Source: Candidula unifasciata (Eukaryota > Mollusca > Gastropoda > Stylommatophora > Geomitridae). From it: a DNA stretch of 64,000 nucleotides. The stretch covers positions 448,815-512,814 of the forward strand of contig CAJHNH020000235.1 in the NCBI GenBank assembly GCA_905116865.2, given 5' to 3'. The notes under the pieces are model-generated. The model searched no databases and was not told the DNA's origin. It saw only the letters and a list, made by a program, of their open reading frames with translations. Below are positions 12,238 to 42,930 of the stretch, one piece after another (the stretch's first letter is position 1; each line of letters starts with the position of its first letter). The position numbers and the translations under genes were made by a program.

Positions 12238-12419
12238 CTATTGGTAAAGTCCTTCCTCTTTACGTGGAGGCTGCAACTCTTTTATTTGTTCACTCAGCCC
12301 GGAGATAGTATTCTCAGGAAGCAAAGCATCTCCGGTGTACTCTACCATCGGCCCGTATCCCTGATGTTTTCTGTTTTCTCTGCTGTAATGGATGCCGTAG
12401 GCGAAATACACCACGAGTC
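12238..12419 (-). CDS. Transporter exon 12 (residues 597-656), terminal coding exon
   Basis: Acceptor CATTTTGTAG/GA. Encodes [18 protein letters not shown] and a cytoplasmic tail ending EEGLYQ, then a TAG stop at 12240-12238. The foldback element at 11855-12222 starts about 15 bases after the stop. Confidence 0.95.
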
Positions 12420-18400: not shown

Positions 18401-19923
18401 GAATGGCTAATATCAGAACTGGAACTATACAGCTCCTTAAAAAACTCTCTTTCTTACCTCATCTGACAGATTCTGAAAAAAACATTCACATCCTGTAAAA
18501 TGCAGCTTTTGCTTAAGCTATTCAACATTCAACTTCTCTAAAACTTAATTTAATAGTAAATTATTTTTGTTTTAAATCTATGTCACCCAAAAAGCCACAA
18601 ACGCAAAGCTTCTTGTTTATCTTGTTTATTCTAATCCCAAGTAAATGTTTTACCAAATTGCTTTAATGGCTTGTTCACGAGAAGCGTAGCCAATAACATT
18701 GGTTCTGTTTGCATTTGCTCAAATGTTTAAGATGACGGGGAATTATTATATTTGCTAAACATAGCATTTAGGTGGGGTTTTCTTGTGTAAAAATAGCTTT
18801 ATTTATAGAAACTCTGACACCAGAATTTCCCATGTCATAGTGGTAATCCAGTGATCAGTTTATAGGGTCGAGAATGTGTCACTGTATATATTTTTAGGCT
18901 CAAAGAGATGTAACCTGGGTAAATCTCTACTGAAATATTCCTCTTATTTTGTTTCATAAATTGAATTGTTAGGAATTTTTAGTGTGACCTTTGTAAAATG
19001 TATTTTTTTTTTTTTTAATTTAAAAAAAGAGGATTTTTGGGGAATTCCCAAAATAATAGTCACTGGCTTCATTTTTTTTTCTAGGTCACAGGGATGAAAG
19101 GGCTAAAGTGATCTTAGTTTTGCCATACTCGTCATCACCATGCACTATAATTCTTATACTGCCCTCTAGCATAGAACTGTTATCTAGAAAGATGCAAAGG
19201 TGCCAACAATGTAACAAATCCCACAATATATATTTATACTTGCCTGAAAAGTAAGGAATGCATCGTTCTTTTCATGGGCGACAATCACTAAGTAAAATAT
19301 GACGATTAACAGACTGAAGATGATCACTAGTAGCACAGCCCACCATGTTGCTTTCTGGGAATACAAAATTTGGATTTTATAGGAAATAATGAAACAAACT
19401 GTTAACTTATATGAATCAAATATTGATGTATTTATTAAATTAATTTACGGTTGTTAGCATTGCTTGAAATATTGAAATTCAGTCAAACAATCAGTTGCTG
19501 TCTCTGCAGTAGCTGGGATGGATCTTCAGTACAATCTGTCTCTCTCCCTGGTGTGCTCTCTCTAAGTTTCCAAAACTGCAGTTCATCCATCTTTAAATAC
19601 TCTCCTCCCATTTGTATATTTATGTCTTGCTCGGGGGGAAATGTAACGTTTGTTGATGAGCACTGCCAAGAGCACTATTAAGATTAAAATTTATTTCTAT
19701 AAGGCTGTTTTTAATGCCATCACTCCATTTTTTCCCGAGGTCTTTTGCTCACTATATACAAGCTGTTTCAGTGTGGCTTATTGGGATAGATAGTACAGTA
19801 TGATATTTAAAATATTTATATTCAGGCTAAGGACAGGACAAAACAAACTTCTTCAACACATGTCCAAACTTTTTGGTGCAGGAAATACAGAGACATGTTC
19901 CTGCAGGGTTGGTTGGTTGGTTG

Positions 19924-19957
<34 letters not shown>

Positions 19958-19958
19958 A

Positions 19959-20031
<73 letters not shown>

Positions 20032-20039
20032 GTTAGTTT

Positions 20040-20125
<86 letters not shown>

Positions 20126-26100: not shown

Positions 26101-29100
26101 TGTCAGAACATGATTACCAGCTCTACATGGTATGGAAGATCATTTGTGTCAGAACATGATTACCAGCTCTACATGGTATGGAAGATCATTTGTGTCAGAA
26201 CATGATTACCAGCTCTACATGGTATGGAAGATCATTTGTGTCAGAACATGATTACCAGCTCTACATGGTATGGAAGATCATTTGTGTCAGAACATGATTA
26301 CCAGCTCTACATGGTATGGAAGATCATTTGTGTCAGAACATGATTACCAGCTCTACATGGTATGGAAGATCATTTGTGTCAGAACATGATTACCAGCTCT
26401 ACATAGTATGGAAGATCATTTGTGTCAGAACATGATTACCAGCTCTACATGGTATGGAAGATCATTTGTGTCAGAACATGATTACCAGCTCTACATGGTA
26501 TGGAATATCATTTGTGTCAGAACATGATTACCAGCTCTACATGGTATGGAAGATCATTTGTGTCAGAACATGATTACCAGCTCTACATGGTATGGAAGAT
26601 CATTTGTGTCAGAACATGATTACCAGCTCTACATGGTATGGAAGATCATTTGTGTCAGAACATGATTACCAGCCCTACATGGTATGGAACATATAGAGAT
26701 ATACAACCAGACTATTATTGCAACCTCTGGATTGGGACTCTGCGTTTGCTGCTTAAGATGAGGATGAAGCACTTATGGGAATTTTCTAATTGCTATGATG
26801 TCAGCTGTTAATTCATAACTTGTAACATAAAATCATTCAATTATCTTAATCTGACAGACATGTGTCACTGCACGCCTTACCTTAAACTGACATTTACTGA
26901 CAGGTTGGTACCGAAGGATGATGATGCTTGCAGATACAATTGTGTAACCAAACAATGTGCCAATGCTTATAAACTCTACCAACGTCGTGATTTCAAACAA
27001 CAAAGCCATCAGTGCAGCCAGTAATCCAAAAATGATGATTGCAAATATTGGTGTCTGAAATAAATATTTCTTATTTATACAAATCCAACCAAATGGTACA
27101 CACACTTTGGCAAGAGAAAACAATGTTTTAAAATAAATGTAATACTTAATTTATACAGATATCACTTGTAACACCCTTATTCTCCTTCTCCTTCTTCTGC
27201 CGCTGCTGCATTTATTTTGTTATTCGTGACCACTGTACTGTGAAGCAGACTAAATCTACTTCAAGTCTGGGTTGGTATTTAATTTTTTTTATAACAATAC
27301 AGACACCTGAGCCTACAGACCAGAGGCTGGACTAGCTCAGACATGTCATTTCCACCAAGTGCCAAGTCAATGCCACCAAGTCCCAAGTCAATGCCACTAA
27401 GTGCCAAGTCAATGCCACCAAGTGCCAAGTTACTGCCACCAAGTCCCAAGTGATTGACACCAAGTCCCAAGTCACTGCCACCAAGTCCCAAGTCACTGAC
27501 ACCAAGTCCCAAGTCACTGCCACCAAGACCCAAGTCCCTGCCACCAAGTCCCTAGTCACTGCCACCAAGTCCCCAGTCACTGCCATCAAGTCCCAAGTCA
27601 CTGACACCAAGTCCCCAGTCATTGCCACCAAGTCCCAAGTCACTGACACCAAATCTCCAGTCACTGCCACCAAGTCCCCAGTCACTGCCACCAAGTCCCA
27701 AGTCACTGCCACCAAGTCCCAAGTCACTGACACCAAGTCCCAAGTCACTGACACCAAGTCCCAAGTCCCTGCCACCAAGTCCCAAGTCACTGCCACCAAG
27801 TCCCCAGTCACTGCCACCAAGTCCCAAGTCACTGCTACAAAGTCCTAAGTCACTGCCACCAAGTACAAGGTCATGTCTCAAGTCACCAAGAATGATTCCA
27901 AGCTGAGTCCTGAGTCAAGTCATTTCATTTAGCAATTCATTTGAAAGAAATGCATGGGACAATGCTTTTGGATTAAACTGGTTGGTCTCTTACAAAACTA
28001 AAACAACAGCCAACAATTGTTAAAAATGGTATTATGTAAAATCACTTAACTATATATATAAAAGCCGAAGAAGTTGAATGTGAAAGCTTGATTTATCTAA
28101 ATAGAGTTTGTTCTGTCCTGTTTTATATACAGACATTTAAAATTGAGACGCTGGTCACCAGACTGGACAGTGGGTGACTGCAAAGAATGATTTGTATCAT
28201 CGATACACTACAAGTTATATGTCAAGTCAGGAGTCTTTGTACAAAACCCCAAGTTGAGTCACAAATCATTAATTATGAAATGAAAGTTACTCTCAAGTCC
28301 ACGTGACTAAAGATCTGACCACTGCTACAGACCCACCTGTGTTCGTGGGTGGATGTAAGCCAGAAAGTGAAACAAAAGTCCATCCTCTGCCATGGCATAG
28401 ACTGACCGAGGACACGAGAATGCAGAACCAAGTAACGATGTTGTTATCCCCAGCAGAGTCCCAAACGCAACAATGTACTTTGCCCAGTGAGCACCGACCT
28501 CATCAAAAGCAAATGGAAAAGCCGCTGAAAAAAGGGAAAGAAATGATAAACAATCTGTGAGCACCATTGATCTTTCCGGACAATCGGTATGTTATTGTAG
28601 TTTACGTGCACACCACCCCGGGGAATTCCAGGATGACTGTGTTCCGCTGCATGGCAATCATAACCCCTGGCATGGTTTGTGCAAATGGCAAGAATCCAAA
28701 TTAAATATAGGGGGTAATCAATAAACATGACCTTTATTACTGAGGCTTAAGGGAAAATATGAAATCAACTAAGCTTTGAAAAGCGATTGGGGGTCGTCAG
28801 GAAACCCCCATAATTGCTATTTTTGTTTACTATATTCACATCCTGGTTTATTAAACATAGACTCCCATTAAATGCAATTTAACTTCACTTTTTGAGAATA
28901 TGATTTTTGGCTTCTTCACTAGCAACAGCAATGCCTTCAAAAAATTTAATAAGACGAATAACAGTAAACATCTATAAGACCCTATCAGCAGACTCGAAAG
29001 AAAGCAACATACAACAATTTTCTGTCTACGAACAGGACACTGCAGGCTCAATTACCACACGCATAAAATAAAGATTGTACAGTCCCCACAGTGTGCCTGT

Positions 29101-32100
29101 CAAACAGGACCACAAACACCTGAGCACATTCTGCAGACCTGCCCACTCTACCTACAACTTCGAAAAGACACCTGGCCTCAAGAGCAAAGTGTGCAGAGCA
29201 AGCTATGGGGAACCATGAAGGACCTGCTACTGACATGCGAGTTCATAGAAGCAACCCACCTGATGGTCTGATCTGAGCATACGAATCCAAGCTCAAAGAA
29301 GAAGAAGTAACAAAAGAATCAAAAAGTGAATGAGATTTCAGGACTATTGATGCCACCACATGTCTTTGACATGTTTGTTCTCATATGCTCTTTTTTTTTA
29401 CCTGCTGCAATCCTGTTCTCTTTTTCTCCTAGTCTAAACCCACAATGTGCTGGACTTGTTTCATTTCTGACCATCTTATCGACTGACTCAACCTAAATGG
29501 GGTCAGGAAGTGTCATGGGAAATAAAGGGGGTTAGTATGATGTTGACCACCTCCACATGTGGGTTCTAGGGTCCCACTGGGTTGGGAGTCTGTGGAATGG
29601 ACACACTGCTGATAAACAAATATATCCTAAAAAGTGACTAGATAAGGAATTACTGAAATTGAATGATTTCGGCTGAAAGGTGCAGATATTATGTTATGTT
29701 TTCACAACTAACGTCGCTGCGTACTGGACAATCCCATGCGTGCTCAGTCCTCCGATGCAGCAGCCGCTCCAAGGTACTTCCACTGATTTTTCCCATGAGA
29801 AATCAATTATAGTGTTCCCTGTCTTGGCTTTGAAGACAGCATAAATGTGTTTTACTAAGCCTCACAGCCAAGCAAGTGAATTAGTTATTTAGAACACAAA
29901 ACTAATAAATATGTCAGAGACAAAATATATAAACTGTAGGGGCATCAGGAGCCTCTCTTGGCAGTGGTGAAACGTTGCAAGCTAGCTGGGTTTGGGCACA
30001 TGGGGAGACATGATTTGATTACAAAGACTTTACTTCAAGGAACATTGGGGGGTAGTCAAAGAAGATGAGGGCAAAGAAGAACCTGGAATAACAACATCAA
30101 GAAATGGACAGAACTAAGTTATCATACACACATTCATCAAGCGGAAGACAGAGAAAGATGGCGGGTTTTATGTGCTAGTGCTTTTATCAAGACACCTCCA
30201 CGACCCTGATGGGTCAAGGGTTATGTTATGTTATGTTACAGCCAAGCTGTAAACCACAATACAATGTGCCACCACCGTTTTCAAGATGAATACAGAAAAA
30301 AAATTCTTATTAAATCATCATCATCATGTGCTTTGCCGGTAAGTGTAGACTGTCATGCTTAGCGATCTCACACGATTACCACAATCAAGAATCAGGTCTG
30401 TGTTCTTGCTTCACTCCATTGACTCTTATGACATGCTTGTTAGGAAGGCAGTGGGCCTATTCTTGTTTTTTTCCCCACAGTGGGACCTGGGAACCCATCC
30501 AGGGAATCTGGTGTCATGAAATTAATATACTCTAACTTTAACTCTTGATCCTCTCAACTTTAACTCAACTCTTGATCCTCTCAACTTTAACTCTCGATCA
30601 CCATGACTTTAACTCTTGCTCCTATCAACTTTACCTCTTGATCCTCTCAATGTTAACTCTTGATCCTCTCAACTTTAACTCATGATCATCATGACTTTAA
30701 CTCTTGATCCTCTCAACTTTAACTCAACTCTTGATCCTCTCAACTTTAACTCTTGATCCTCTCAACTTTAACTCTTGATCCTCTCATTTTTAACTCTTAA
30801 TCCTCTCAACTTTAACTCTTGATGCTCATGACTTTAACTCTTGATGCTCATGACTTTAACTCTTGATCCTCTCAACTTTATCTCTTGATTCTCTCAACTT
30901 GAACTCTTGATTCTCTTGACTTTAACTCTTGATCTTCATGACTTTAACTCTTTATCCTCATGTCTAATAACTCTTGATCCTGTCAACTTTAAACTCTTGA
31001 TCCTGTCAACTTTAACTCTTGATTCTTTAGACTTTAACTCTTGATCCTCTTGACTTTAACTCTTGATTCTCTTGACTTTAACTCTTGATTCTCTTGACTT
31101 TAACTCTTGATCTTCATGAATTTAACTCTTTATCCTCATGACTATAACTCTTGATCCTGTCAACTTTAACTCTTGATCTTCCCAACTTTAACTCTTGATT
31201 CTCCTGACTTTAACTCTAGATCCTCATGACTTTAATTTTTGATCCTCCCAACTTTAACTCTTGATCTTCCCAACTTTAACTCTTGATCCTCACAATTGTA
31301 ACTCTTGATCCTCCCAACTTTAACTCTTGGTATAACCAACAGCTAGGGCTTTTTCCTAGAAAAAAAAGTGTCGGTACTCACAACAAAGTGTTAAACAGAT
31401 GCCAGCACTCACAACAAAGTGTTAAAAACAGATGCCAGCACTCACAACAAAGTGTTAAAAACAGATGCCAGCACTCACAACAAAGTGTTAAAAACAGATG
31501 CCAGCACTCACAACAAAGTGTTAAAAACAGATGCCAGCACTCACAACAAAGTGTTAAAAACAGATGCCAGCACTCACAACAAAGTGTTATAAACAGATGC
31601 CAGCACTCACAACAAAGTAGCGATTACAATAGTGGTGAATCCATCATCTATTTCTCAATACCTGTGTTTGTTTTCGAAATTTTAGGATTGTAAGTACATG
31701 TTTTTTTTCTTTTCAAAGATGGCGACTATTGCCATGGCAACCATTATTTTTTTTTTAAACTTAAAGTATGCAAATGTATTAACATATATCCCTACAAATG
31801 AGCATTATAAAATAATTGGTAAATCACTATTATTAATTTAAAATATTTTGATGTAGTGACCCCTTAACAACTCTCTGTCAGCGATTCTGAAGCTGTCCAC
31901 TTCCAAAACTAAGACCACACATAAACAGTTTATTAATAAATAGTATGTTGTTTGAAATATTTGTTTGTCCTCACATGGTAATAAGCTTTGGACTCGGTGG
32001 ATTGCGTGGATGAAACCTCCTATTGCTTCAATGGACAAGAAGGCATTTACCAGCAGGCTCTGTAGAGAGCTTCAAGTAAGGCAGGGCACTTAAAACACCT

Positions 32101-35100
32101 TGGTCATCCACTGGTCATCCACTGCACCTAGGTCCATTTCCAGTCGTCCTGCCATTGGATCAAGATGGACACAGGCAAGAGAGTAAGGTCGACGAATTGC
32201 GCAACTCTTCTTCCTTTAAATCCAAGTCCTTGCATAAGTCACTTTTCATCACTTTTCAATATGCTTTAAACACGAACAGTCACAATCAATGACCTCTGAC
32301 CTGAAGTGTTTGTGTCAAAGTAGGGAATCATCAGTGTCAAACTGGCGCTAGCTAGCAGGTACAGGCAGGTGACAGTCAGCAGCGAGAGAGCTGTAGCTTT
32401 CGGGATGCTCTTCTCTGGATTTTTGGCTTCCTCCCCGGCAACGGCAATGCCTTCAAAGCCGATGTAAGCAAAAAAGCAGGTGGCAGCACCAGACAGTGTG
32501 CCACCAAAGCCAAATGGGAAAAAGCCTCCATACCTGCAGGGAATGTTAACTTTCTGTAAAGTTAATACTTTCAATTGACTGTAAAAATGTAATTTAGTAA
32601 TTTTATCCTGTTGCTCTGCAAATGCTAAAAACAATTTGGGCCATGAAATTCCCAGAAGAATCATTTAAAAAATAACCATTTTACAAAGGTCACTAATAAA
32701 TTTGTAAGAAATTTATATATCTGCATTTTAATCCCCCCTCCTCCCCTTCCTTCCTCCCAGAAATAAAAAGATATAAAAAACGGGCAATCAATAATCATGT
32801 CCTGGGAAGTAGAGGCGGACGGCGTGATGCTGACTTCATCATTCATCTTGGGCCAATTGGTCTATAAAATATAGGTCTAGCCCTATATGCCCTATACGCC
32901 TAAAGATGTAGAAACCATAGAATTTAACTACACATTTTGAGAACAGGTTATTGCTGATAGACCTATGATTTGGTATTCACAGGATACCAAGTCACAAGCA
33001 GAAGTCACTAGATTTATTCGTTGGATGGTGACAGGATTAACTTGCGATTTAAAGAAAAGATGGTTGTTGGTTTGAACATCACGGCACAAGGGTAGTAACC
33101 CATAAGTGTTATATTCTACTTCTAACTCAAGTCTGAGTCCAAAGAATCTCAGCGCAGTACACAACTCCATAGCACCGGCGAGGATCCTAAACTATTTTGG
33201 TAGATTTTTACCTCCAAATTTTGCCAGGGCAGCGCCGTTAAGCTACTCTTTTTGATTTCTAACTGCCAAGGGATATTTTACATGCACAACAATACACACG
33301 GGCATCTGATCTCACTACCCACAGACCAGGGGAAGTTACTAGAAGTCCACGAGAAAAAATCCCAGCCTTCACAGCGGCCTGAACCTGGGACGTCCTGCAC
33401 TCGAGGCGGACGCCATGCCTGGAGATCACTCAACCCCCCTTTAAAGAAAAGATTGAAAACAGTAACTAAATTTACTCACCCTCCACTGATGGACCACAGA
33501 CTTGTGTTGGCAAATGTAAAGCCAGCGATGATGATGAACAGCAACACAAAAGCATTGAGTACAGTGAACACACTGTTGAAATTCACGGAAATCTTGGCTC
33601 CGAATCCGATGATGATGAAAGCGATGATGGTGATGCCCGTGGCTACAAGATCTGGATATTCTGAGAGCCACTCATTGTCTTGGGACAGATGACCTGAAAG
33701 GTCAAGGGTCAGAGTGTAATCTCTATTTTTAGAAATGGAAGAAAGGGAACAATAACTATTCCTAAAGATGCTGCCATGTGGCATTGGTAGTCATGTCTAT
33801 CCACAACCTTCTGTTTAACTTACTGTCAGTCTTATAGTCCATGCCGTGTGGCATTGGTAGTCATGTCTATCCACAACCTTCTGTTTAACTTACTGTCAGT
33901 CTTATAGTCCATGACATGTGGCATTGGTAGTCATGTCTATCCACAACCTTCTGTTTAACTTACTGTCAGTCTTATAGTCCATGCCGTGTGGCATTGGTAG
34001 TCATGTCTATCCACAACCTTCTGGCTTGTGTACTTTCAATCACTTCTGACACAGATGATCTTCCATGCATGATGTCAAAATGTCAAGCATCTTCTCTCTG
34101 TCTCCTTCTGCCTCTTTTCCCCTCCAACTTTCCTATGGTCATGATGTACTCCAGTTTTCTCCTTCTTATGACAAGACCAGCAAATTTAGATTGTCTCCTT
34201 CGTTTGTTTTAGTATCCAGAAGCCATGAGTTGTTAACCCTTAGGCTCGGTATTATGGATATCGCAACCTTTCGGCCTTGATTCCATTGTAAATACCGTAA
34301 ATCTGGGAGAAAATGTGGCTTTCCTGCCTACCCCCGGGATTGAACCCGGACCACAAGGAGTACGTCACCCGGTCTCCGCGAAATCCGGTTTAGCCAATTC
34401 CGCTAGAGAGCCGGGCATTGTCTCCTTCTGATGTGAGCAATCAGTTCTCCTCGTGAGTCAGTTGTTTTCAAGACATCTTCATTACTCTTTTTAAAAAAAA
34501 ATCTGTCAAGGGTGTTCTCAGATAAGTCTATAAAACGTTCTTCAGTGCTTTCAAATAACTGTTTTGCTAATCATCTAACTGTCCATAATTTACTTTCGTA
34601 TATCAAGATGGGATTCATATAGATCATGATAGTTTTCTTGTACACCTCAACAAACAAACTTAATTCATATGAAATCCTATATAAAACACATGCACAAACC
34701 AAGATGAGTAATTGTTCCATTTCTGATGGCCTGGTTAAAGACAGCATCTAAAGCTCCACTCCATGCCCTGGCAACAGAGGCTGCACCAATCACATGCTCA
34801 AGAATAACATTCCAGCCAATCAGAAATCCCCACAGCTCACCAATGGTCACATAAGTATAGGAGTAGGCGGAGCCAGCTAATGATTGGATAAACACATGTA
34901 CTGGTTAATACAATGGTAAGCAATGGTCATATTGTTATGTGAACAAGTGCAGAGCAATGAACATGGAGTTTTACTTGCTGCAACAAGCTAGTGTCCAAGA
35001 AAGCTGGCTAGATACCCAAACCAAATTTTCTCCCAAATACTTAAGTCGATTCTCTAGTAGACATAAACATTGTTTTATTTTCAGACTAAGGACATGGCAC

Positions 35101-38100
35101 AACAGACTTCACCAACGTATGCTCACATTTTTTGGGTGTAGGAAACAATTAGATGCCCCTGCAACTTGGCACCTGAAAATGCTAAGTATGTACATGATTA
35201 CGTAAAGTGTACGCTGCCAGAAGGGAAACGATCTGGCCTGTAACCACTTCAATCAAGACAAAGCTGTATGGTACACAAGGAGATTTGGACTGCATGAAAG
35301 CTATCGAAAGGCTCCTGCAGTTTTAAGTTTTCTGATATAAGGATCAAAGAAGAAGAAGAAGAAGAAGAAGAAGACGCTGCAAAAATTCCAGGTGTAGGAA
35401 GTTATAATGGAAAAGGCAAACATTCTGAGCTCTTCTCATGAATGTTTGCTATATGAAAACATAATGTTCGACATAACTCATGCAAGAATGTGTCATTAAC
35501 TTTTTCAGTCCAAGAAGATCATAGCTGATGTCCTGTTGTGACAGCCAAAATTATAGGTATATTACATCCTCAGGGACTAAATGTACAACACAGTGTAGGA
35601 GACAAATGTTTTGCTGTGACTAAACTTCACCATCATCAAGTGCCTTGCCAGCTGGTGTAGGCATTCATGCATCTCCACAGATGTCGGTCTTTGGTGGTCT
35701 GGATCAATTCCACTGATGATATTCTTCCATGCCACTGTCTTAAGCCATCCACCATCATTTCTCTTGGTCTGCCTCTGCCTTTTCTACCAGTGATCTTTCC
35801 AGTCGTCAGGATATTTTCCAGTGTACCTCTTCTCATCACATGACTTTAGAACTTTGTTTGTCTCCTTCTCATTGTTATATTTAATGTTCTACTATTATTA
35901 GCCATTTCACGTCAATCATTGTTAGTTATTCTGCCCGTCCAAGGTATTTGCAAAATTCTTCTCAAGAACTGCATCTCAGGTGCATCCAAACTCTTCTTAA
36001 TTTGTTTGCTCACATTACATGATTCTGCGATCGAAACTCACTGCTGACTGCATGGGTTTTTACCATGGTATGGGACGTCGCAGGTTGGCCCAGCCTAAAA
36101 TGTGTACCAGGATGGGCTGTCCTGGGAAAGTAAAGACAGCCGGCGTAATGCTGACCACATTACCCACCGAGTGCTGATGGTCTGTAAAAATATGGGCGCT
36201 CTTCCCATATGCCCGTTGCGCCGAAAGGCGTGAAAAGGAATCTTTGCTTGCTTACATGATTCACTGCCATACAACAGAACAGGTCCGATATAACATTTCA
36301 GTACTCGTTTTCTGATGATGGGTCTGTGCCGGACTAAAGAAACTTATACAGTGGCACTTTAGGTCATGGATGCCTCTAAGCATGAACTAATCGGTCCACA
36401 AACACAGTATCTGAATAAATTTTGACTTGACCCGCAAAAAATGCTTCGGTCCACGAATGCACAAACATGGCTTTGGGGCCATGTTTTTGGCTAACATACA
36501 AGAAAGTTGTACTCAGGTTTGTATGCTATGAAAGGTATTTATCTTTGCCTTGTTCTTGATACAATGTTTTCCTGGTATTGCATTTAATTACCCCTTTCAT
36601 GGCTCCCAGGAAAGTGAAAAGTGTTTGTGACCATGGTGTAAAGAAGTCTAAGCATATTACAGTAGAAAAAAAGAAGGATACAATAACTAAACATGAAAAT
36701 GGTGTTCATATTACCGATCTCAGGAAGCTGTAAGACATGACTAAATCTACAATCCATACTATCTACAATCCGTACTATCTACAATCCATACTATCTACAA
36801 TCCATACTATCTACAATCCGTACTATCTACAATCCACACTATCTACAATCCGTACTATCTACAATCCGTACTATCTACAATCCGAACTATGTACAATCTG
36901 TACTATCTACAATCCGTACTATGTACAACTCGCACTATCTACAATCTGTACTATGTACAATCCGTACTATCTACAATCTGTAATATGTACAATCCATACT
37001 ATCTACAATCTGTAATATGTACAATCCGTACTATCTACAATCTGTATTATCTACAATCCATACTATCTACAATCCGTACTATCTACAATCCACACTATCT
37101 ACAATCCGTACTATCTACAATCCGTACTATCTACAATCCGAACTATGTACAATCTGTACTATCTACAATCCGTACTATGTACAACTCGCACTATCTACAA
37201 TCTGTACTATGTACAATCCGTACTATCTACAATCTGTAATATGTACAATCCATACTATCTACAATCTGTAATATGTACAATCCGTACTATCTACAATCTG
37301 TAATATGTACAATCCGTACTATCTACAATCTGTAATATGTACAATCCGTACTATCTACAATCTGTATTATCTTAAAGAACAAGCTGCGCTAAAGATGACT
37401 GATGTGGTTAAAAGAGGTACTGTGTTAATTAAACAAAGCCCATCATTAGGAAAACAGGAACAGACCCACTGCCTCCCCAAAGCATGTCGTAAGAGTCGAC
37501 TAATTGGGGAGCTTCCTTTGAAGTCGGAGTGCATCCACCTGAGAGGCAAGGAACCAACAGTCTGCATTCAAGTGAATCAGATCTGTAAAACTGAGGCACA
37601 CTCAGGTTCTGGAGCAGGACAGCAGTTCAGAAGTGGATGAACAGCCAGAACTTTCCACCAGAGTGTACAGCTGGTAAACGAGAAGAAGAAGAAGAAGAAG
37701 AAGAATTTAACAAAGCTCTCAATTGTTAGAAGAAGTAGAATAATCAAAGTTAGCCACTGAGCCAGCAATCAAACCACTGCTTAGGATACAAACAAGAACA
37801 AAAATACAGGAAATACCCAAAAAGTTGTCCAAAGTTATAATGGAATGGAACTCTCCTTCGAAGGAGTAGTCTTCCTCCTACTCCTCTTCTATCTGCCTGT
37901 GCCAGCAATAATCAAACCCAAAGGTCAAGTTATACCATATACTGGGAGTCGCCGTGGCAGAGCGGCTAGACGCGCGCCGCGGATCAGAAGGTCGTGAGTT
38001 TGCTCCCTGGTGAAGCCGGACTTTTCTTCAAAAATGACCTTGGCTCCCAGGTAGACCCAGCCTTGAGTGGGTACCGGGTGCAGTCTTGGGAAGTAAAGGC

Positions 38101-41100
38101 GGCCGGCGTCATGATGCTAACCACATCAGCCATCTTGTGCCGTTGGTCTATAAAAATATAGGTCTAGCCCTATATGCCCTATATGCCTAAAGGCGTGGAA
38201 AAGGTCTTTCACTTTTTTTTTAAATACCATATACTGTATATTTTATATTTTGGTTACACATAAATCCATACAAATTTCAGGGTGAGATTTTAAAAAAAAA
38301 AAAGGGGGGGGGGTGGATATTGTATGCAGCTATCCGGGAAGGCTAACATGGTCAACAAATGCCCGCAGAAGTCGGATGTGTTGGCCAAAAGGTGCAAATA
38401 TCGCAGCTATGCTGTAAATGGACACAAGACAATTACATCTTCGGGTGAACGCAGAAGAAGAAGAAGTATGCAGCTATAAAAAATGATAGCCCTGCATGTG
38501 GAAAAAGGATCCTTTTCCACGCCTTTAGGCGATCTGGGCATATAGGGCTAGACCTATATTTTTATAGACTAATTAGCACTTTGTTGGTGATGTGGCCATC
38601 AAAACAGTGAGTCATACTAGTACGTAGGTGAGTCATACTCGTACGTAGGTGAGTCATACTAGTACGTAGGTGAGTCATACTAGTACGTAGGTGAGTCATA
38701 CTAGTACGTAGGTGAGTCATACTAGTACGTAGGTGAGTCATACTAGTACGTAGGTGTAATAAACCTTGGTTTGACTTGAAATGTACCTTGGCTCACTACA
38801 TATTGGCTTTTGCCACGGCTCCCTCTCTGGATGTTTACTGCTACAAAACTTGCACTGCTTTAACGTCTAGGGTTGACAACACAAACACCACTATGCTTCT
38901 TTGTACATGCCGTCAGTTTATTCTGGTCCATTTCTTCCACATGTTCAAACAATTATTCTCACTTTCATCGCTTACGACAAATTCAAACACTAGCCATTCT
39001 CGCGACATAAAGACGACATCTTCAATTACTACAACCATCTTCTCTGACTTCTGTTGATCAACTGACCACGAGTCTAGCTCGGGCTGCCCCTCGCTTGCTC
39101 CACTAGCCCCAATTATCTCGTGCTGTCACTTGTAACACGGACTTTCTGCTGGCCACAATGTACTCGTGGAGACCATGCAAAGCAGGGTCATTACAATAGG
39201 CATAAAAAATTTTTTAAATGTAGGTATGTAGATGCATTCATATGTGCAAGTGCAGTATGTAAATATAAATACTTACCTTTTGGGATTCGGGCTCCAAATT
39301 CGGCATAACACAAGGCACTAAGAAATGCGGCCACTCCAGCAAACAAGAAACTGAGAACTGTGGATGGCCCGGCCTTATCATGAACTACCGTACCTGGATT
39401 CATCGAAGGCAATAATAAGTTTAGCCACATTAAAAGGTAGGTTTATTTTTAGGGTTAGCACTTTTCCAACTTACTTAATTATTCGCTCCTCTTCTAACCT
39501 GGGGTATGGAGGTTGACTAGAGAGATCATCAAACTTCTCTATCATCAGTTTTCTTTCTGGCTTTGTTCCGTTCCAGTCCTCTGTAAGTTTGGGACTGTTG
39601 AATGATGTCTTCCCAGCAGACCCTGTGTCACCCTGGATCTATTCATCCACACATCCATCCATCTACGCATCCACCAATCTACATATCCACACATCCCCCC
39701 ATCCACCAGTCCACATATCCATGCATTCACACATCTGCTTTGTTTTTGGTTGATTTGTCTCTAATCCTTGCTATAATTGTGACTCACTGGTCCCGTATCA
39801 TAAAACACAGTCACAAACTGGCACTTGAGCTCAGTCCTTATTTGTGTTCAATTGATTGGCGCCGACAGATGGTTCTCATTGTTAATATGGACAACAAAAT
39901 ATGGTAGCTGTGTAAAGAGGCAGTCTATAAGTAGACTTGAAGCAAGTCACATGGAGGCAGGCTTATGGACAGACTAATAGATGGATGGATGGATGGAGGC
40001 ATGTATGTGTTGGATGCATGGATGGATGGATGCATTTATGGATGCATGCATGGATGGATGAGGCATGGATGGATAGATGCATGCATGGATGGATGGATGC
40101 ATTTATGGATGGATGCATGGGTGCATGGATGGATGGATGCATAGCTGCTTGGATGGATGGATGCATCGGTGCATGCATGGATGGGTTTGTGCACATATGC
40201 ATGGTGCATGGATGTATGTATGGATGTGTGCATGGATGCATGGTGCATGGATGGATGGATGGGTGAGTGGATGCATGCATGGATAAATGCGTGAATGGAT
40301 GCTTGCAAGGAGGCATGGATGGGTGGATGGAACCTGCCTTGTAGCCTGCAGTTCTCATGTAGCATGCAATTCTTATCACCCTACCAACCCACCAATCTAC
40401 CTGTCTTTCTGTCTGTCTGGATGAGTGCTTTCTTTGACACCTCTCTCACCTGTCATCTTACTAATCTACCTAAATACATACTTGTTTATCTGTCTGTCTA
40501 TCAGTCTGTCTGTATGTCTGCCACTCAGTCAATCTGAATGTTCGTGTATATCTCTGACTCTGAGTGTCAGTCTGTCTATGAGTCTTTCTACCTGCTAATC
40601 AGTCTATCTTCCAATCAGTTTGCATGACTATCTGTCTGTCTGACTGCTTGTTTATCAGTCTGTCTGTATGTCTTCCTAGAGTCTGTCTGGGTGTCTCTCT
40701 ATGAATCTGTTTGCCTGTCTATCAGTATGTCTATCCATCAGTCGGCCTGTCTCCATGCCTATCTACCAATTTGTATGTCTGTCTTGAGTGCATTTCTTAA
40801 CACCCGCCTCCCACCTGTCAACACAATGAAGCCCCCTCCCACCTGTCAACACAATGAAGCCCCCTCCCACTGTCAACACATAGAAGCCCTCTCTCACCTG
40901 TCAACACATAGATGCCACCTCTCACCTGTCAACACTGCCCATCTCACCTGTCAACACACAGATGCCCCCTCTCACCTGTCAACACATAGATGCCCCCTCT
41001 CAGCTGTCAACACATAGATGCACCCCTCTCACCTGTCAACACATAGAACCCTCTCTCACTTGTCAAAACATATATGCACCCGTCTCACCTGTCAACACAT

Positions 41101-41841
41101 AGATGCCCCCTCTCACCTGTCAACACTGCCCATCTCACCTGTCAACACACAGATGCCCCCTCTCACCTGTCAACACATAGATGCCCCCTCTCAGCTGTCA
41201 ACACATAGATGCACCCCTCTCACCTGTCAACACATAGAACCCTCTCTCACTTGTCAACACATATATGCACCCGTCTCACCTGTCAACACATAGATGCCCC
41301 CTCTCACCTGTCAACACTGCCCATCTCACCTGTCAACACACAGATGCCCCCTTTCACCTGTCAACACATAGATGCCCCCCTCTCAGCTGTCAACACATAG
41401 ATGCGCCCCTCTCACCTGTCAACACATAGAACCCTCTCTCACTTGTCAACACATATATGCACCCGTCTCACCTGTCAACACATAGATGCCCCCTCTCACC
41501 TGTCAACACATAGATGCCCCCTCTCACCTGTCAACACCGCCCCTCTCACCTGTCAACACACAGATGCCCCCTCTCACCTGTCAACACATAGATGCCCCAG
41601 TCTCACCTGTCAACACATAGATGCCCCCTCTCACCTGTCAACACCGCCCATCTCACCTGTCAACACATAGATGCCCCCTCTCACCTGTCAACACATAGAT
41701 GCCAGCCCCAATCATATGCCCAATGCCCAGCAAGGTGATATCGAAGGTGTTGAGACACCGGCTCAGCGAGGTCTCGTGCATGTCTTCAGGGATTGTCTTC
41801 ACCCTGGTGATCTTACTGATCCCTCGCTTGATGAACTCCAT
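12238..41841 (-). CDS. SLC7A: Cationic amino acid transporter (SLC7A, CAT subfamily), complete 12-exon gene
   Basis: Twelve exons (41685-41841, 39277-39393, 34700-34876, 33480-33693, 32301-32533, 28337-28524, 26881-27054, 22446-22562, 20776-20967, 19244-19354, 16043-16151, 12238-12419) join without a frame break into 1971 bases, 656 residues, the usual CAT length. Motifs: [10 protein letters not shown] before TM1, GAGIYVLTG in TM1, [58 protein letters not shown], and a [11 protein letters not shown] end. The glutamate in GELWG (residue 105) aligns with Glu107 of mouse CAT-1, needed for transport. About fourteen membrane segments are expected. The role inferred is sodium-independent uptake of arginine, lysine and ornithine at the plasma membrane. 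The soluble loop of exons 8-9 is the variable part. The start is residue 1 at 41841, or an ATG four codons upstream if no splice occurs there. Assignment to SLC7A1, 2 or 3 is not possible. Confidence 0.93.
12420..12689. other. Intron 11, start of an RT-1 relic
   Basis: AT-rich sequence next to the acceptor. From about 12650 the TTGCAGAATGTTGCTCTCGT block shared with other RT-1 relics begins, leading into the minisatellite. Confidence 0.5.
12690..13735. repeat. 23-bp minisatellite, about 45 copies, last intron of the transporter
   Basis: Tandem unit with core CACCTAAAAGTCTCGTCACG; variants alternate CG/CA/TG at CpG positions. The unit corresponds to the CACGxxACACxxGTGAAAGTCTC stretch of RT-1 relics (as at 265-290), and RT-1 sequence flanks it on both sides. 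Confidence 0.95.
13736..14020 (-). mobile_element. RT-1 relic, remainder
   Basis: Directly continues the minisatellite with TTTTTCTCTAACCAATTCTC and GTCTTGTGTCCACCTTTGC, matching the inverted C-terminal region of RT-1. Confidence 0.6.
14085..14285 (-). repeat. Dispersed repeat R1
   Basis: Second copy of the element at 1-170; carries GGACCTCTCCACGGTGATCC and TTTATCGCTTGTGTGATG. Ends in a short GTCAGTCAGTCA tail. Confidence 0.65.
14624..14667. repeat. (CTT)n microsatellite
   Basis: Fourteen or more CTT triplets, with G-rich tracts at 14700-14725. Probably a retroelement tail on the minus strand. Confidence 0.9.
14690..14950 (-). repeat. Dispersed relic shared with 19630-19755
   Basis: Common blocks include AAGAGCACTATTAAGA and TCTGTAAGGCTGTT/TTAATG. 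Resembles decayed LINE coding sequence; no frame survives. Confidence 0.5.
14950..15740. other. Intron 11, old LINE-like fragments only
   Basis: 15060-15470 contains decayed stretches (TGATGGCCCTCAGGCCAGATG, GTCTGGCTGCATTCTC) that look transposon-derived; no intact frame or splice-bounded exon. Confidence 0.35.
15740..15950 (+). mobile_element. SINE family D copy
   Basis: Shares the TATAGAGATCTCTGGGGA, GCTTCAGAGTTTGTACTTTG and CTCTGCAGA blocks with 60270-60410 and 63235-63415. Confidence 0.6.
16043..16151 (-). CDS. Transporter exon 11 (residues 561-597)
   Basis: Acceptor TTTTTGCAG/ATC, donor TGTCG/GTAAGT, phase 1. Encodes [19 protein letters not shown] and [12 protein letters not shown], the last two-span unit of CAT proteins. 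Confidence 0.95.
16196..17180. repeat. 23-bp minisatellite, about 42 copies, abutting a 3' splice site
   Basis: Core GCCTCAGGTCTGGTAGGTTC. The array begins about 45 bases upstream (in minus sense) of the exon 11 acceptor at 16152 and occupies the branch-point side of intron 10. Flanking units have a longer variant with AGCTCAGGTATAGGGGGCAG. Confidence 0.95.
17181..17530. other. Intron 10 spacer, nothing recognised
   Basis: Some RT-4-like words near 17480-17530 lead into the following relic; otherwise no feature. Confidence 0.4.
17531..17870 (+). mobile_element. Non-LTR RT C-terminal relic (RT-4)
   Basis: Open frame with [44 protein letters not shown]. It matches 9532-9850 in order and spacing. 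Ends in ATGATGATGATAA, a probable 3' tail. Confidence 0.85.
17960..18320 (+). mobile_element. Family A retroelement end
   Basis: Plus-strand equivalent of [10 protein letters not shown]...[12 protein letters not shown], then the conserved C-terminus and CTGAAGATGAGGACAGAGC tail ending in TCAACTCAACTC. Frames are broken. Confidence 0.75.
18330..19180. other. Intron 10, AT-rich, no feature identified
   Basis: Poly-T and poly-A runs near 19000-19030 only. Confidence 0.4.
19244..19354 (-). CDS. Transporter exon 10 (residues 524-560), GC donor
   Basis: Acceptor TATTCCCAG/AAA; the 3' end reads TTTTCAG/GCAAGT. Only a GC donor at this point keeps phase 0 with exon 11; the GT five bases later would shift the frame. 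Encodes the span [20 protein letters not shown]. Confidence 0.93.
19630..19755 (-). repeat. Dispersed relic shared with 14690-14950
   Basis: AAGAGCACTATTAAGATT and TATAAGGCTGTTTTTAATG blocks in the same order as in the other copy. Confidence 0.5.
19785..19900 (+). mobile_element. Retroelement C-terminal fragment (family H)
   Basis: The plus strand reads as [18 protein letters not shown] codons with a Cys residue downstream, corresponding to 35080-35372. It is cut at 19905 by the TTAG tract. Confidence 0.6.
19906..20145. repeat. (TTAG)n microsatellite, about 60 copies
   Basis: 240 bases of nearly pure TTAG with GGTT at the left end. On the minus strand it is (CTAA)n directly following the family B stop codon, i.e. 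the expanded 3' tail of that retroelement. Confidence 0.95.
20146..20576 (-). mobile_element. Family B retroelement RNase H end
   Basis: The minus strand carries [16 protein letters not shown], then [20 protein letters not shown] and [13 protein letters not shown], matching 5169-5560. One frame break sits near 20450. Its 3' end is the TTAG/CTAA tract. Confidence 0.88.
20776..20967 (-). CDS. Transporter exon 9 (residues 460-523)
   Basis: Acceptor TTTATCTTCAG/TCC, donor TTGATG/GTGAGA, phase 0. Hydrophilic start ([17 protein letters not shown]), then a membrane span ([19 protein letters not shown]). Confidence 0.93.
21115..21412. mobile_element. TIR element family F, copy 1
   Basis: Ends are inverted repeats (GGTGCTTTATTATTATCC, TACCC at left; GGGTAGGATATTAACAAAG at right). 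The body has GATAGGCTGCATGCA and CTAGATGTTTTGGGGTCAT. The other copy is 61709-61980. No ORF; a non-autonomous DNA transposon is likely. Confidence 0.75.
21550..21745 (-). mobile_element. RT-1 relic leading into a GAA tract
   Basis: CAGAACGTCACTCTCATCAC and CTGAAAGAAACTCAGTCTCTC match the RT-1 relic blocks at 2385-2450; AGAAGAAG repeats follow. Confidence 0.55.
21780..22020 (+). repeat. Dispersed repeat family E with GAA-rich tail
   Basis: CCAACAGTCTGCACACAATA and the ACTTTC/GAAGTTCATAGCCAG end of family E, followed by AGGAAGAAG-type purine sequence. Confidence 0.6.
22095..22385 (-). mobile_element. SINE-A, minus orientation
   Basis: Inverted copy of the 37945-38223 element: GGGCATATAGGGCTAGACC, GATGTGGTCAGCATCACGCC, GGACTGCACCCGGTACCCAC. 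It lies in intron 8, starting about 60 bases from exon 8. Confidence 0.8.
22446..22562 (-). CDS. Transporter exon 8 (residues 421-459), variable loop
   Basis: Acceptor TTTACACAG/CTG, donor GTCAAG/GTAATC, phase 0 on both sides, 117 bases. Hydrophilic, Ser/Thr/Glu-rich, no membrane segment. Because it is symmetrical, skipping it would keep the frame, so it is a candidate cassette exon. Confidence 0.85.
22735..26690. repeat. 3.9-kb satellite in intron 7: 194-bp dimers plus 46-bp monomers
   Basis: From 22735 a plus-strand RT C-terminus ([13 protein letters not shown]...; [18 protein letters not shown]) merges into tandem copies of its last codons. Starts of the TATGGAAGATCATTTGTGTC block at 23211, 23405, 23599 and 23793 give an exact 194-base higher-order period made of two unequal halves. 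Two long runs (24540-25560, 25920-26690) use a shortened 46-base unit with ATTACCAGCTCTACATGG. Within-array identity is very high. Confidence 0.96.
26690..26815 (+). mobile_element. Family A 3' tail
   Basis: ATATACAACCAGACTATTAT, then CTGCTTAAGATGAGGATGAA and GCTATGATGTCAGCTGTTA: the last 100 bases of family A, ending about 65 bases short of exon 7. Confidence 0.7.
26881..27054 (-). CDS. Transporter exon 7 (residues 363-420)
   Basis: Acceptor TTATTTCAG/AC, donor TTTAAG/GTAAGG, phase 0 on both sides. Encodes [37 protein letters not shown] and the conserved ILRYQP end. Confidence 0.95.
27330..27880. repeat. 21-bp minisatellite, about 25 copies
   Basis: Core CACCAAGTCCCAAGTCACTG. Because the unit is a multiple of three, several frames stay open on both strands; these are artefacts. 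Lies in intron 6. Confidence 0.95.
27900..28335. other. Intron 6 spacer, nothing recognised
   Basis: Moderately AT-rich; a faint AAGTCC-AAGTC echo of the adjacent minisatellite persists to about 28300. Confidence 0.4.
28337..28524 (-). CDS. Transporter exon 6 (residues 300-362)
   Basis: Acceptor TTTTTTCAG/CG, donor ACACAG/GTGGGT, phase 0. Contains [20 protein letters not shown] and the [14 protein letters not shown] signature. Confidence 0.95.
28898..28936 (-). pseudogene. Decayed copy of part of transporter exon 5
   Basis: On the minus strand this 39-base stretch reads [13 protein letters not shown], against [13 protein letters not shown] in exon 5 (32424-32464). About 34 of 39 bases agree. 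No splice sites flank it, and similarity stops abruptly at the family D element. Confidence 0.75.
28936..29310 (+). mobile_element. Family D retroelement end
   Basis: The plus frame has [35 protein letters not shown] and [11 protein letters not shown], then a TGA and an AAAGAAGAAGAAG tail. Matches the nested copy at 10751-11250. One in-frame stop near 28975. Confidence 0.85.
29310..29945. other. Intron 5 spacer, weak repeat content
   Basis: 29470-29560 contains SINE-like words (GGGGTCAGGAAGTGTCATGG, AATAAAGGGGGTTAG) too diverged to assign. A TTATGTTATG motif near 29690 recalls the tail at 30220. Confidence 0.35.
29945..30240 (+). mobile_element. Non-LTR RT C-terminal relic (RT-5) with (TTATG)n tail
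   Basis: The plus strand shows [35 protein letters not shown] and [12 protein letters not shown], then a stop and a GTTATGTTATGTTATG tail. One stop in the middle. Confidence 0.8.
30330..30510 (-). repeat. Family E-like fragment
   Basis: AGGAAGGCAGTGGGCCTATTC and the GTAAGTGTAGACTGTCATGC region resemble inverted family E (compare 37440-37500). Confidence 0.45.
30525..31330. repeat. 22-bp minisatellite, about 36 copies
   Basis: Core TTTAACTCTTGATCCTCTCA with CATGAC and TTGAC variants. Lies in intron 5. Confidence 0.95.
31366..31620. repeat. 33-bp minisatellite, 7-8 copies, in-frame
   Basis: Nearly identical units (CACTCACAACAAAGTGTTAA plus AAACAGATGCCAG) that encode an 11-residue repeat in one plus frame. 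No gene context; the open frame follows from the unit length. Confidence 0.95.
31625..32295. other. Intron 5, near exon 5: nothing recognised
   Basis: AT-rich 31700-31950; 32040-32200 has no repeat partner in the window. Confidence 0.4.
32301..32533 (-). CDS. Transporter exon 5 (residues 222-300)
   Basis: Acceptor CCCTGCAG/G, donor CTTCAG/GTCAGA, phase 1. Carries [39 protein letters not shown] and the [18 protein letters not shown] span; the most conserved core of the family. Confidence 0.96.
32805..32912 (+). mobile_element. SINE-A 3' part
   Basis: GGACGGCGTGATGCTGACTTC, GGTCTATAAAATATAGGTC and CCTATACGCCTAAAG. Intron 4. Confidence 0.75.
32940..33440 (-). mobile_element. SINE family C with 3' body, minus orientation
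   Basis: The minus strand reads from the tRNA-like head near 33440 (CATGGCGTCCGCCTCGAGTGC), through GACTTCTAGTAACTTCCCCT and ATCCCTTGGCAGTTAGAAAT, to AGGATCCTCGCCGGTGCTATG. Other copies: 48380-48630, 51835-52225, 56484-56760. It ends about 40 bases from exon 4. Confidence 0.75.
33480..33693 (-). CDS. Transporter exon 4 (residues 151-222)
   Basis: Acceptor CCTTTCAG/GT, donor GGAGG/GTGAGT, leaving phase 2. Encodes [20 protein letters not shown] and [20 protein letters not shown], two membrane spans, then an N-T-S sequon. Confidence 0.95.
33770..34660 (-). mobile_element. Non-LTR RT C-terminal relic (RT-6) with 70-bp tandem copies, split by a SINE
   Basis: Four 70-base units (33775-34045) contain the GGCATTGGTAGTCATGTCTA block, which is the inverse of the MTTNA(T) codons of RT-6. 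The rest of the RT-6 C-terminus follows (34045-34201) and resumes after the SINE (34429-34660). Compare 55625-56410. Confidence 0.8.
34202..34416 (-). mobile_element. tRNA-derived SINE with A and B boxes and 12-bp target duplication
   Basis: On the minus strand the element starts GCCCGGCTC, has TAGCGGAATTGG (a perfect match to the A-box pattern TRGYNNAANNGG) and GGTTCAATCCC (B box). ATTGTCTCCTTC flanks it at 34190-34201 and 34417-34428. It has no other copy in this window. Confidence 0.92.
34700..34876 (-). CDS. Transporter exon 3 (residues 92-151)
   Basis: Acceptor ATCATTAG/CT, donor CTTG/GTTTGT, phase 1 at both ends. Contains [20 protein letters not shown] with the transport-critical glutamate, ASVARAWSG, and an N-G-T glycosylation sequon. 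Confidence 0.95.
35080..35372 (+). mobile_element. Retroelement C-terminal end, family H, with GAA tail
   Basis: The plus frame holds [19 protein letters not shown], then frame breaks, a [15 protein letters not shown] end and AAAGAAGAAGAAG tail. Relative of 19785-19900. Confidence 0.7.
35630..36010 (-). mobile_element. Non-LTR RT C-terminal relic (RT-6 type)
   Basis: The minus frame has [39 protein letters not shown] and [17 protein letters not shown], then a stop. Upstream codons to 36010 are decayed. Confidence 0.85.
36020..36250 (+). mobile_element. SINE family B (SINE-B), 5' part diverged
   Basis: GCGATCGAAACTCACTGCTG, CATGGTATGGGACGTCGCAG, CAGCCGGCGTAATGCTGACC and the CTCTTCCCATATGCCC end match 57277-57556. 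Confidence 0.8.
36255..36745. other. Intron 2 spacer, nothing recognised
   Basis: Some RT-like words to about 36340 (continuation of the RT-6 relic beyond the SINE), then plain sequence. Confidence 0.4.
36748..37373. repeat. 16-bp minisatellite with 256-bp higher-order duplication
   Basis: About 39 copies of CTACAATCCGTACTAT. A block of sixteen variant units is duplicated: the same variant order ends at 37015 and again at 37271, exactly 256 bases apart. Confidence 0.96.
37430..37705 (+). repeat. Dispersed repeat family E, longest copy, with GAA tail
   Basis: Runs from GCCTCCCCAAAGCATGTCG, through CACCTGAGAGGCAAGGAACC, to CAGCTGGTAAACGAGAAGAAG and seven GAA triplets. The GAA tail makes it a likely LINE or SINE 3' end. 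Confidence 0.8.
37945..38223 (+). mobile_element. SINE-A, intact copy with perfect 13-bp target duplication
   Basis: ATACCATATACTG flanks the element at 37932-37944 and 38224-38236. The head GGAGTCGCCGTGGCAGAGCG has an A-box-like TGGCAGAGCGG and a B-box-like GGTCGTGAGTTTGCTCC. Central GGCCGGCGTCATGATGC and a 3' run of T end it. Confidence 0.93.
38334..38465 (+). mobile_element. 132-bp 5'-truncated retroelement with 12-bp target duplication
   Basis: GTATGCAGCTAT flanks it at 38322-38333 and 38466-38477. The insert ends GGGTGAACGCAGAAGAAGAAG. The part left includes AAGGTGCAAATATCGCAGC; parent element unknown. Confidence 0.9.
38490..38600 (-). mobile_element. SINE-A fragment, minus
   Basis: CCTTTTCCACGCCTTTAGGC and GGGCATATAGGGCTAGACC are the inverted 3' half of SINE-A; cut off where the AP-1 array begins. 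Confidence 0.75.
38607..38753. repeat. 21-bp tandem array, seven copies, each with a perfect AP-1 motif
   Basis: Unit starts every 21 bases from 38607; each contains TGAGTCA followed by TACTAGTACGTAG. Only one substitution (CTAG to CTCG) among the seven. Located in intron 2 of the transporter gene. Confidence 0.95.
38760..39270. other. Intron 2 spacer near exon 2
   Basis: No recognised element; C-rich 39050-39180 and not repeated in the window. Confidence 0.4.
39277..39393 (-). CDS. Transporter exon 2 (residues 53-92)
   Basis: Acceptor AATCCAG/GT, donor AAAAG/GTAAGT, phase 1 at both ends. Encodes TM2 ([20 protein letters not shown]) and the conserved AEFGARIPK loop. Confidence 0.95.
39475..39630 (-). 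mobile_element. RT-4 C-terminal fragment
   Basis: CAGTTTTCTTTCTGGCTTTG and TCCAGTCCTCTGTAAG match the end of the RT-4 copy at 48650-48790 in the same order. Confidence 0.75.
39635..40330. repeat. (CATC/ATGG)n tetranucleotide arrays in inverted arrangement
   Basis: 39640-39740 is CATC-rich on plus, 39975-40330 is ATGG-rich with TGCATGCATGG variants, i.e. the same repeat in opposite orientation about 250 bases apart. Long open frames here are artefacts. Confidence 0.92.
40385..40795. repeat. (CTGT)n-rich degenerate tetranucleotide repeat
   Basis: CTGTCTGT, TATCAGTCTGT and similar words throughout; leads directly into the splice-donor minisatellite. Confidence 0.9.
40800..41684 (-). repeat. 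28-bp minisatellite copying the exon 1 splice donor, about 33 copies
   Basis: On the minus strand each unit reads GGCATCTATGTGTTGACAG then GTGAGAG and a G run, identical to the last 19 bases of exon 1 plus its donor. The array starts at the real donor (41685) and extends about 885 bases into intron 1. Variant order repeats with a period near 192 bases (41018, 41209, 41401). Confidence 0.97.
41685..41841 (-). CDS. Transporter exon 1 (residues 1-53)
   Basis: Encodes the cytoplasmic N-terminus and TM1 ([18 protein letters not shown]). Donor ACAG/GTGAGA, phase 1. On its upstream side GGTTCCACAG directly precedes the ATG and could be a splice acceptor; if so, a further upstream exon exists. Both boundaries lie inside tandem repeats. 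Confidence 0.9.
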
Positions 41842-42250
41842 CTGTGGAACCATCAAATCACCACAGGTGTCAAGTGTTTGTTTGTTCGTTTGTTTATATG
41901 CCTGTCTGTTTGACTATATGTCGGTGTGTGTCTATATGTCTGTGGAACCATTACATCACCACAGGTGTCAAGTGTTTGTTTGTTTGTTTGTTTGATTATA
42001 TGTCAGTGTGTGTCTATATGTCTGTGGAACCATCACATCACCACAGGTGTCAAGTGTTTGTTTGTTTGTTTGTTTATATGCCTGTCTGTTTGATCATATA
42101 TCGGTGCGTGTCTATATGTCTGTGGAACCATCACATCACCACAGGTGTCAAGTGTTTGTTTGTTTGTTTGTTTATATGCCTGTCTGTTTGATCATATATC
42201 GGTGTGTGTCTATATGTCTGTGGAACCATCACATCACCACAGGTGTCAAG
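41842..42250 (-). repeat. 98-bp tandem repeat containing the exon 1 upstream junction, five copies
   Basis: Copies of the CTGTGGAACCAT junction start at 41842, 41940, 42022, 42120 and 42218 (periods 98, 82, 98, 98). On the minus strand each holds GATGGTTCCACAG, the sequence that immediately precedes the exon 1 ATG, plus a TTTG tetranucleotide run. Confidence 0.95.
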
Positions 42251-42930
42251 TTTTCATCGTCTATATGTCTACCTGTCTCTATTTCAATCTAACTGAATAA
42301 ATGTTTGTCTGTTTGTCTTTATGATTGTGTTTGTTTATACGTATGCCTGCATATATATCTGTCTATTTGCTCATATTTATGTCTGTTTATCCATATGTCT
42401 GTGTTTGTTTGTACATCTGGGTATGTCAATATCTCTGTCAGTTTGTCTACATGTATAGGCCTGTCTGTGTGTATACATGTATGTAATTGTCTCTGTGTCC
42501 GTCTCTTTGTATGTATATGTTTGTATGTATCTATATGTCTGTCTCTGTTCATATGTATGTGTGTCTATATATCTGGCTGTCTATATGTCTAGCAGTCTGT
42601 CTGCCTGACAGTCATCCTGCTTGTTTGTCTGCCTACATGCACGTATATGTGTATGTTTTTGAGTGTATGTTTGTGAGTGCATATATGTGTGTGTGTTTGT
42701 TGGTGCATATGTGTGTGTGTATTTGTTGGTGCATATATGTGTGTGTGTTTGTTGGTGCATATATGTGTGTGTGTTTGTTGGTGCATATATGTGTGTGTGT
42801 TTGTGAGTGCATATATATGTGTGTGTTTGTGAGTGCATATATGTGTGTGTGTTTGTGAGCACATGTGTGTGTGAGCGCATTTGTGTGTGTGTGGGTGTGC
42901 GTATGTATGTATGTAGGTAGGAAGTATTAA
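42251..42930. repeat. (TGTC/TATG) and (TG)n repeats with 26-bp TTGTTGGTGCATATA units
   Basis: 42300-42600 is TGTCTGT/TATATG-rich; 42650-42900 is a TG repeat with a regular TTGTTGGTGCATATATG interruption. Confidence 0.92.

Follow-up and report, generated by a model that had tools for sequence, protein, structure and literature searches.

A Tandem Array of Donor-Bearing Units at the Exon 1/Intron 1 Junction of a CAT4-like Transporter Gene in the Snail Candidula unifasciata

The window analyzed here (64,000 nucleotides of Candidula unifasciata contig CAJHNH020000235.1, positions 448,815 to 512,814; all coordinates below are those of the window) contains an SLC7 (CAT4-like) gene in which the end of exon 1, together with the 5' splice site that follows it, is repeated as a tandem array directly behind the exon. 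The array derives from the exon, its latest expansion is recent, and splicing from any of its downstream units would lead to a premature stop. In the reading that we consider probable, the array is a nearly neutral minisatellite lying over a splice junction, with copy 1 (the copy at the exon edge) as the dominant donor and some leakage of transcripts to decay.

Table 1. Features of the transporter gene and of the arrays at its first exon.
Feature	Position	Strand	Basis
Coding span, SLC7 CAT4-like gene, 12 coding exons by model	12238..41841	-	Pfam PF13520, PF00324, PF13906
Exon 2, 117 nt, multiple of three	39277..39393	-	Gene model
Diverged outlying donor copy (CAGGTGAGA at 40452), approximate boundaries	40394..40455	-	Local score
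Donor-side minisatellite, 33 units, 22-29 bp spacing	40807..41703	-	TRF and TTGACA unit split
Higher-order repeat blocks (short units at 220, 191, 191 bp)	40940..41542	-	Unit spacing
Intron 1 donor GT (true 5' splice site), at the array's edge	41683..41684	-	Gene model; P0002 reads ...VLTG/TVV across the join
Exon 1 (first coding), 157 nt with a phase 1 end, MEFIKRG...GAGIYVLTG	41685..41841	-	Gene model; source of the array's exonic half
Acceptor-side/5'-flank array, 5 copies, spacing 82-98 bp	41842..42251	-	Sequence copies and TRF

The transporter gene and the array behind its first exon

Exons 1-11 were modeled with consistent splice phases, and exon 12 (12419-12238) was read directly from the sequence. 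The predicted protein matches the Pfam families AA_permease_2, AA_permease, and AA_permease_C; its top-scoring solved structures are those of CAT1, and its best eight protein matches come from two sea slugs and from snails of land and fresh water, with the name cationic amino acid transporter 4-like given to several of them. A protein of Bradybaena similaris is 92% identical across its whole length. The Pfam matches and the homologues identify exon 1 as the genuine first coding exon of the transporter, as the original prediction assumed, and rule out a non-coding exon 1. Ten of the donors of the 11 modeled exons are GT and one is GC (exon 10, CAG/GCAAGT at 19244), which by the model gives a GC-AG intron.

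The deposited C. unifasciata protein (P0002) is identical to ours over the first 420 residues, with copy 1 joined to exon 2. Over the full length, the listed identity drops to 92%, which reflects the absence of modeled exon 8 from the deposited model and its 17 added residues before exon 10. P0002 omits modeled exon 8 (22562-22446) and reads past exon 7 (region 22446-26881), and the deposited gene model is probably wrong around exon 8/exon 10. The public annotation combines homology with introns from RNA-seq (RNA-seq is named under PRJEB41346; PMC8496239), and that it is partly homology-based counts against our reading.

Read on the minus strand from 41841, exon 1 ends ...GGGGCTGGCATCTATGTGTTGACAG at 41685, the last exonic base; GTGAGAG follows directly, with the donor GT at 41684-41683. 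TRF describes the array (40807-41703) with a period of 28, 33.0 copies, 83% matches, and a score of 1183, which is far beyond chance; a second fit to the same array has a period of 191 with 4.7 copies and 92% matches. When the minus strand is split at TTGACA, 33 units are obtained within 40800-41700, of which unit 1 is the real end of the exon; the two counts thus bear out the prediction of about 33 tandem copies behind the exon. The unit consists of ~19 terminal exonic bases, GTGAGA, and a G-rich stretch, and includes the 5' splice site of a real exon. Both the gene model and the join in P0002 place the true donor at the edge of the array, as predicted.

Two details of the original prediction need adjustment. 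The 28-bp unit stands as the TRF period, but the 32 spacings between units vary, with values of 28 (15), 29 (8), 22 (5), and 27 (4) bp. The statement that TTGACAG/GTGAGAG is kept in most copies goes a little too far, since this 14-mer (TTGACAGGTGAGAG) is intact in 15 of the 33 units; the 13-mer TTGACAG/GTGAGA is intact in 23. The 33 units represent 17 distinct sequences that are arranged in an ordered pattern.

Donor copies and their coding consequences

The donor 9-mers of the 33 units are dominated by CAGGTGAGA, with 23 occurrences (the real donor included), followed by CAAGTGAGA (three), CAGCTGAGA (three), CAGGTGGGA (two), and CAGGTGAAA (one); the remaining unit has lost a base. Thus, 22 of the 32 downstream units carry a CAG/GTGAGA identical to the true donor, and GT is in register in 28 of 32 (29 of 33 when the real donor is counted). 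Copy 1 and the 22 decoys identical to it pair with the 5' end of U1 at the same energy, -11.1 kcal/mol (the energies were calculated over 11 bases for array donors and over 12 for the other donors of the gene, and the comparison is therefore confined to the array). The description of intron 1 as containing near-perfect decoy donors is therefore accurate, and a preference for copy 1 from donor sequence alone is ruled out. This equality counts against our reading in that the donor sequence provides no explanation for the preference that it proposes.

The coding consequence of each decoy is uniform. Splicing from each of the 32 downstream positions (four of these have no in-register GT) results in a premature stop, at codon index 62 or 66, as the predicted truncation of the protein by use of a distal copy required: read-through encounters a stop at codon index 62, within the array, and use of copy 2 shifts the frame so that a stop is reached at codon index 66, in exon 2. 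Because all of these positions lead to stops, a functional transporter requires the copy 1 join (41685-39393). The functional donor at the exon edge is identified by the coding logic, that is, only copy 1 leaves the frame open, and it is at copy 1 that P0002 is joined.

The two counts, 22 of 32 donors identical to the true donor and 32 of 32 positions unproductive, are what would be expected if the decoys were rivals of copy 1 and the level of the transporter were set by the balance between productive and NMD-targeted transcripts. Such regulation would also be in keeping with human CBS, in which more repeat units are reported to go with lower enzyme activity (PMC5188458), and with human IFI6, in which downstream units are reported to be used; it is weakened by human ABCA7, in which one-unit retention is rare and independent of length, and by the near-identity of the 191-bp blocks described below, so that the ladder in its present size is young. 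The precedents for tuning of output by unproductive splicing, as judged by analogy, point both ways (ABCA7 vs IFI6), and we regard this explanation as unlikely.

The variability within the unit also bears on what may be maintained. Across 16 distinct units, seven of the 16 columns in the junction core are variable vs 13 of 13 in the rest of the unit (P = 0.001, which is overstated because the units are copies of one another). One unit with a lost base inflates the counts of change events, so the figures are given with and without it; when it is omitted (15 distinct units), the proportions are five of 16 and 12 of 13 (P = 0.002, again for units that are not independent). Judged from these columns, the cores could be being kept, and the less variable core counts to that extent against near-neutrality. 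The minimal change events within the core number six in the six intron columns vs two in the ten exonic columns (three intron-side vs two exonic without the base-lost unit). Such a bias toward the intron columns gives no impression of selection for strong decoy donors and may even hint at the opposite, although the events are few.

Origin and age of the array and repeats elsewhere in the gene

The exonic bases within the repeat code for the end of GAGIYVLTG. This motif at the exon end, either exact or slightly substituted and with no insertion, is present in 30 of the 32 homologues that were checked (molluscan and other); the searched motif is absent in two (P0027 and P0030). Because the unit carries the codons of a conserved exon motif, the array was derived from the exon. 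Descent of the exon from the array is ruled out by the presence of the motif in these 30 homologues with no array-derived residues.

Short (22-nt-spaced) units return at intervals of 107, 220, 191, and 191 bp. A single mismatch in 191 positions separates the two 191-bp blocks. That these blocks differ at a single base places the latest expansion of the array in the recent past, and the copy number is likely to vary between individuals given the near-identity of the blocks. The three units at the far end of the array have diverged from the others. Beyond this end, an outlying copy near 40453 shares the downstream flank of the far end of the array (local score of 30; for 300 shuffles, the maximum was 19 and the mean 9); the shared flank suggests that the donor region underwent an older and larger duplication. 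A further CAGGTGAGA is located at 2048 on the minus strand, outside of the gene.

The near-identity of the two 191-bp blocks is also a pattern that could arise if the copy number had been inflated or collapsed in the assembly, which was built on PacBio reads (25.6x) with wtdbg2 (PMC8496239). The PacBio read N50 of 9.9 kb is much longer than the 0.9-kb array, the assembly was polished with Racon and Pilon, and ~120x Illumina data were generated (PMC8496239); also, the 17 unit types occur in an ordered pattern. On this evidence, an assembly artefact is very unlikely.

The 5' edge of exon 1 is also adjacent to an array. The ~33 bases that precede the start codon occur in five copies ending GGTTCCACAG at 42218, 42120, 42022, 41940, and 41842; the last copy adjoins the ATG at 41841, and the homology ends there. 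We infer that the AG at 41842 is the acceptor that is used; the pyrimidine content of the sequence preceding it (0.53) is within the range of the ten other modeled acceptors (0.47-0.94). If so, both splice sites of exon 1 are arrayed. Use of an upstream copy would be expected mainly to lengthen the 5' untranslated region and, therefore, to be harmless. This five-copy array, the ~191-bp higher-order period, and the diverged copy near 40453 are additions of this analysis to the original prediction.

Tandem arrays account for 33.5% of the span of the gene, so it is unsurprising that one of them reaches a junction (the list of arrays was made by hand from the TRF rows, with overlapping rows merged and many small or low-scoring rows omitted). 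Among the 11 of the 12 exons that were compared with this list, exon 1 alone touches an array. Intron 7 contains a large composite satellite (22821-26689; periods of 46, 194, and 388 bp), and units that by eye look related to it (70 and 84 bp) recur at 33772-34023 and 55634-56058. A 23/84-bp array (16185-17109) stops 33 bp short of the exon 11 acceptor, which it does not include.

Precedents and the choice among donors

In the mechanism that we favor, a minisatellite would have grown by slippage or unequal exchange across the exon 1/intron 1 junction, and its growth on the intron side would be tolerated because an intact exon and the donor at its edge are always left in place. The spliceosome would take copy 1 for most of the functional mRNA, probably because copy 1 is the first to be transcribed and no other donor is nearer to the defined exon; U1 bound to the remaining copies would be surplus. 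Some transcripts would use copy 2 or a later copy, acquire a premature stop, and presumably be degraded.

The original prediction held that no case of an exon-intron junction amplified to this extent had been described; this is refuted by human CBS, ABCA7 (to ~427 copies), and IFI6, which also dispose of the idea that nothing like a splice-donor array is in print. The snail array is a further case of this known kind of splice-donor minisatellite/VNTR, in a mollusc; for molluscs, including gastropods, no described case of a splice-donor tandem repeat was found in the literature searched, which is no proof of absence. The added feature of the snail case would be arrays on both edges of one exon, provided that the acceptor at 41842 is the one used.

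The human IFI6 (6-16) minisatellite has a unit of 12 bp, a length at which extra units would keep the frame, whereas the extra units in the snail are all unproductive. Its tandem units, donor-bearing like those of the snail, serve as splice donors; two downstream units are reported to be used as donors (1995 work), which by analogy counts against the dominance of copy 1.

The CBS VNTR, c.1444_1467+7(16_21), has a 31-bp unit that by its name comprises 24 exonic and seven intronic bases in 16-21 copies (PMC2630376); it is located at the exon 13-intron 13 boundary, higher unit numbers are reported to reduce activity (PMC5188458), and it is also entered in a table of PMC1395315. As in the snail, the unit spans the junction, is not a multiple of three, and is present in many tandem copies; unlike the snail array, it has 16-21 copies, its polymorphism and association with activity are reported, and these accounts mention no acceptor-side array. 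A second CBS variant, 844ins68, duplicates the intron 7/exon 8 junction, and the more distal site is strongly favored (PMC2630376); by analogy, this also counts against our reading in that the first site need not always be the winner.

Support for our reading comes by analogy from ABCA7, in which a 25-bp VNTR of ~12-427 copies is located directly behind exon 18, in intron 18, with its first two bases as the donor (PMC5954066). As in the snail, the unit bears a donor and is not a multiple of three, so that retention of one unit shifts the frame; unlike the snail array, which starts ~19 bases inside the exon, the ABCA7 array starts at the donor GT. One-unit retention is reported at 2 +/- 1%, independent of VNTR length and measured with NMD active (PMC5954066), which favors a dominant copy 1 in the snail. 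Blocking NMD with cycloheximide substantially raised the stop-bearing transcripts (PMC5954066), so the 2% understates the use of decoys and counts to that extent against our reading.

In ABCA7, the skipping of the next exon (exon 19) increases with VNTR length (PMC5954066), a further difference from what is established for the snail, and an analogous effect could promote the skipping of exon 2 here. With exon 2 (117 nt) skipped, the frame is kept and is open through modeled exons 3-11, with 39 residues removed. The 0.9-kb array is short beside the expanded ABCA7 alleles and the splicing factors of snails may differ, and we consider a length effect on exon 2 distinctly unlikely.

The array also resembles the tandem AGGT duplications that are proposed to give rise to introns (the Rogers model), with examples described from fission yeast and from vertebrate ATP2A1 (PMC4974935); for humans, PMC2812944 discusses tandem repeats at exon-intron boundaries that create new introns. 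The snail units carry AG/GT, so segments bounded by GT...AG arise; unlike those cases, the snail junction already belongs to an intron, and no new intron is shown. By likeness to this type of intron gain and to recursive splicing, the use of a decoy might leave a GT...AG segment, the removal of which in a second round of splicing would restore the normal mRNA. The 23 units that read TTGACAG/GTGAGA would supply such pieces, and for fission-yeast genes with tandem 24-bp AGGT units, splicing that spans two or four copies is reported (cited in PMC4974935). The pyrimidine content preceding the AG is 0.24-0.53 in the snail array (12 units, copy 1 included) vs 0.47-0.94 for the 11 modeled exon starts, with overlap of the ranges, and we judge self-correction of this type to be extremely unlikely.

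It is similarly improbable, to the degree assigned to exon 2 skipping, that both edges of exon 1 are splice-site ladders (five acceptor-like copies and 32 donor copies) whose length sets the amount of functional transporter, with a fast-mutating repeat acting as an expression dial via unproductive splicing. At present, the snail array provides a clean additional example and not a new principle. Its occurrence suggests that minisatellites at donor junctions are not peculiar to humans, and the array could serve as a natural test of the way in which the spliceosome chooses among many identical 5' splice sites; if the length of the array affected output, it would constitute a mutable expression dial outside of the vertebrates.
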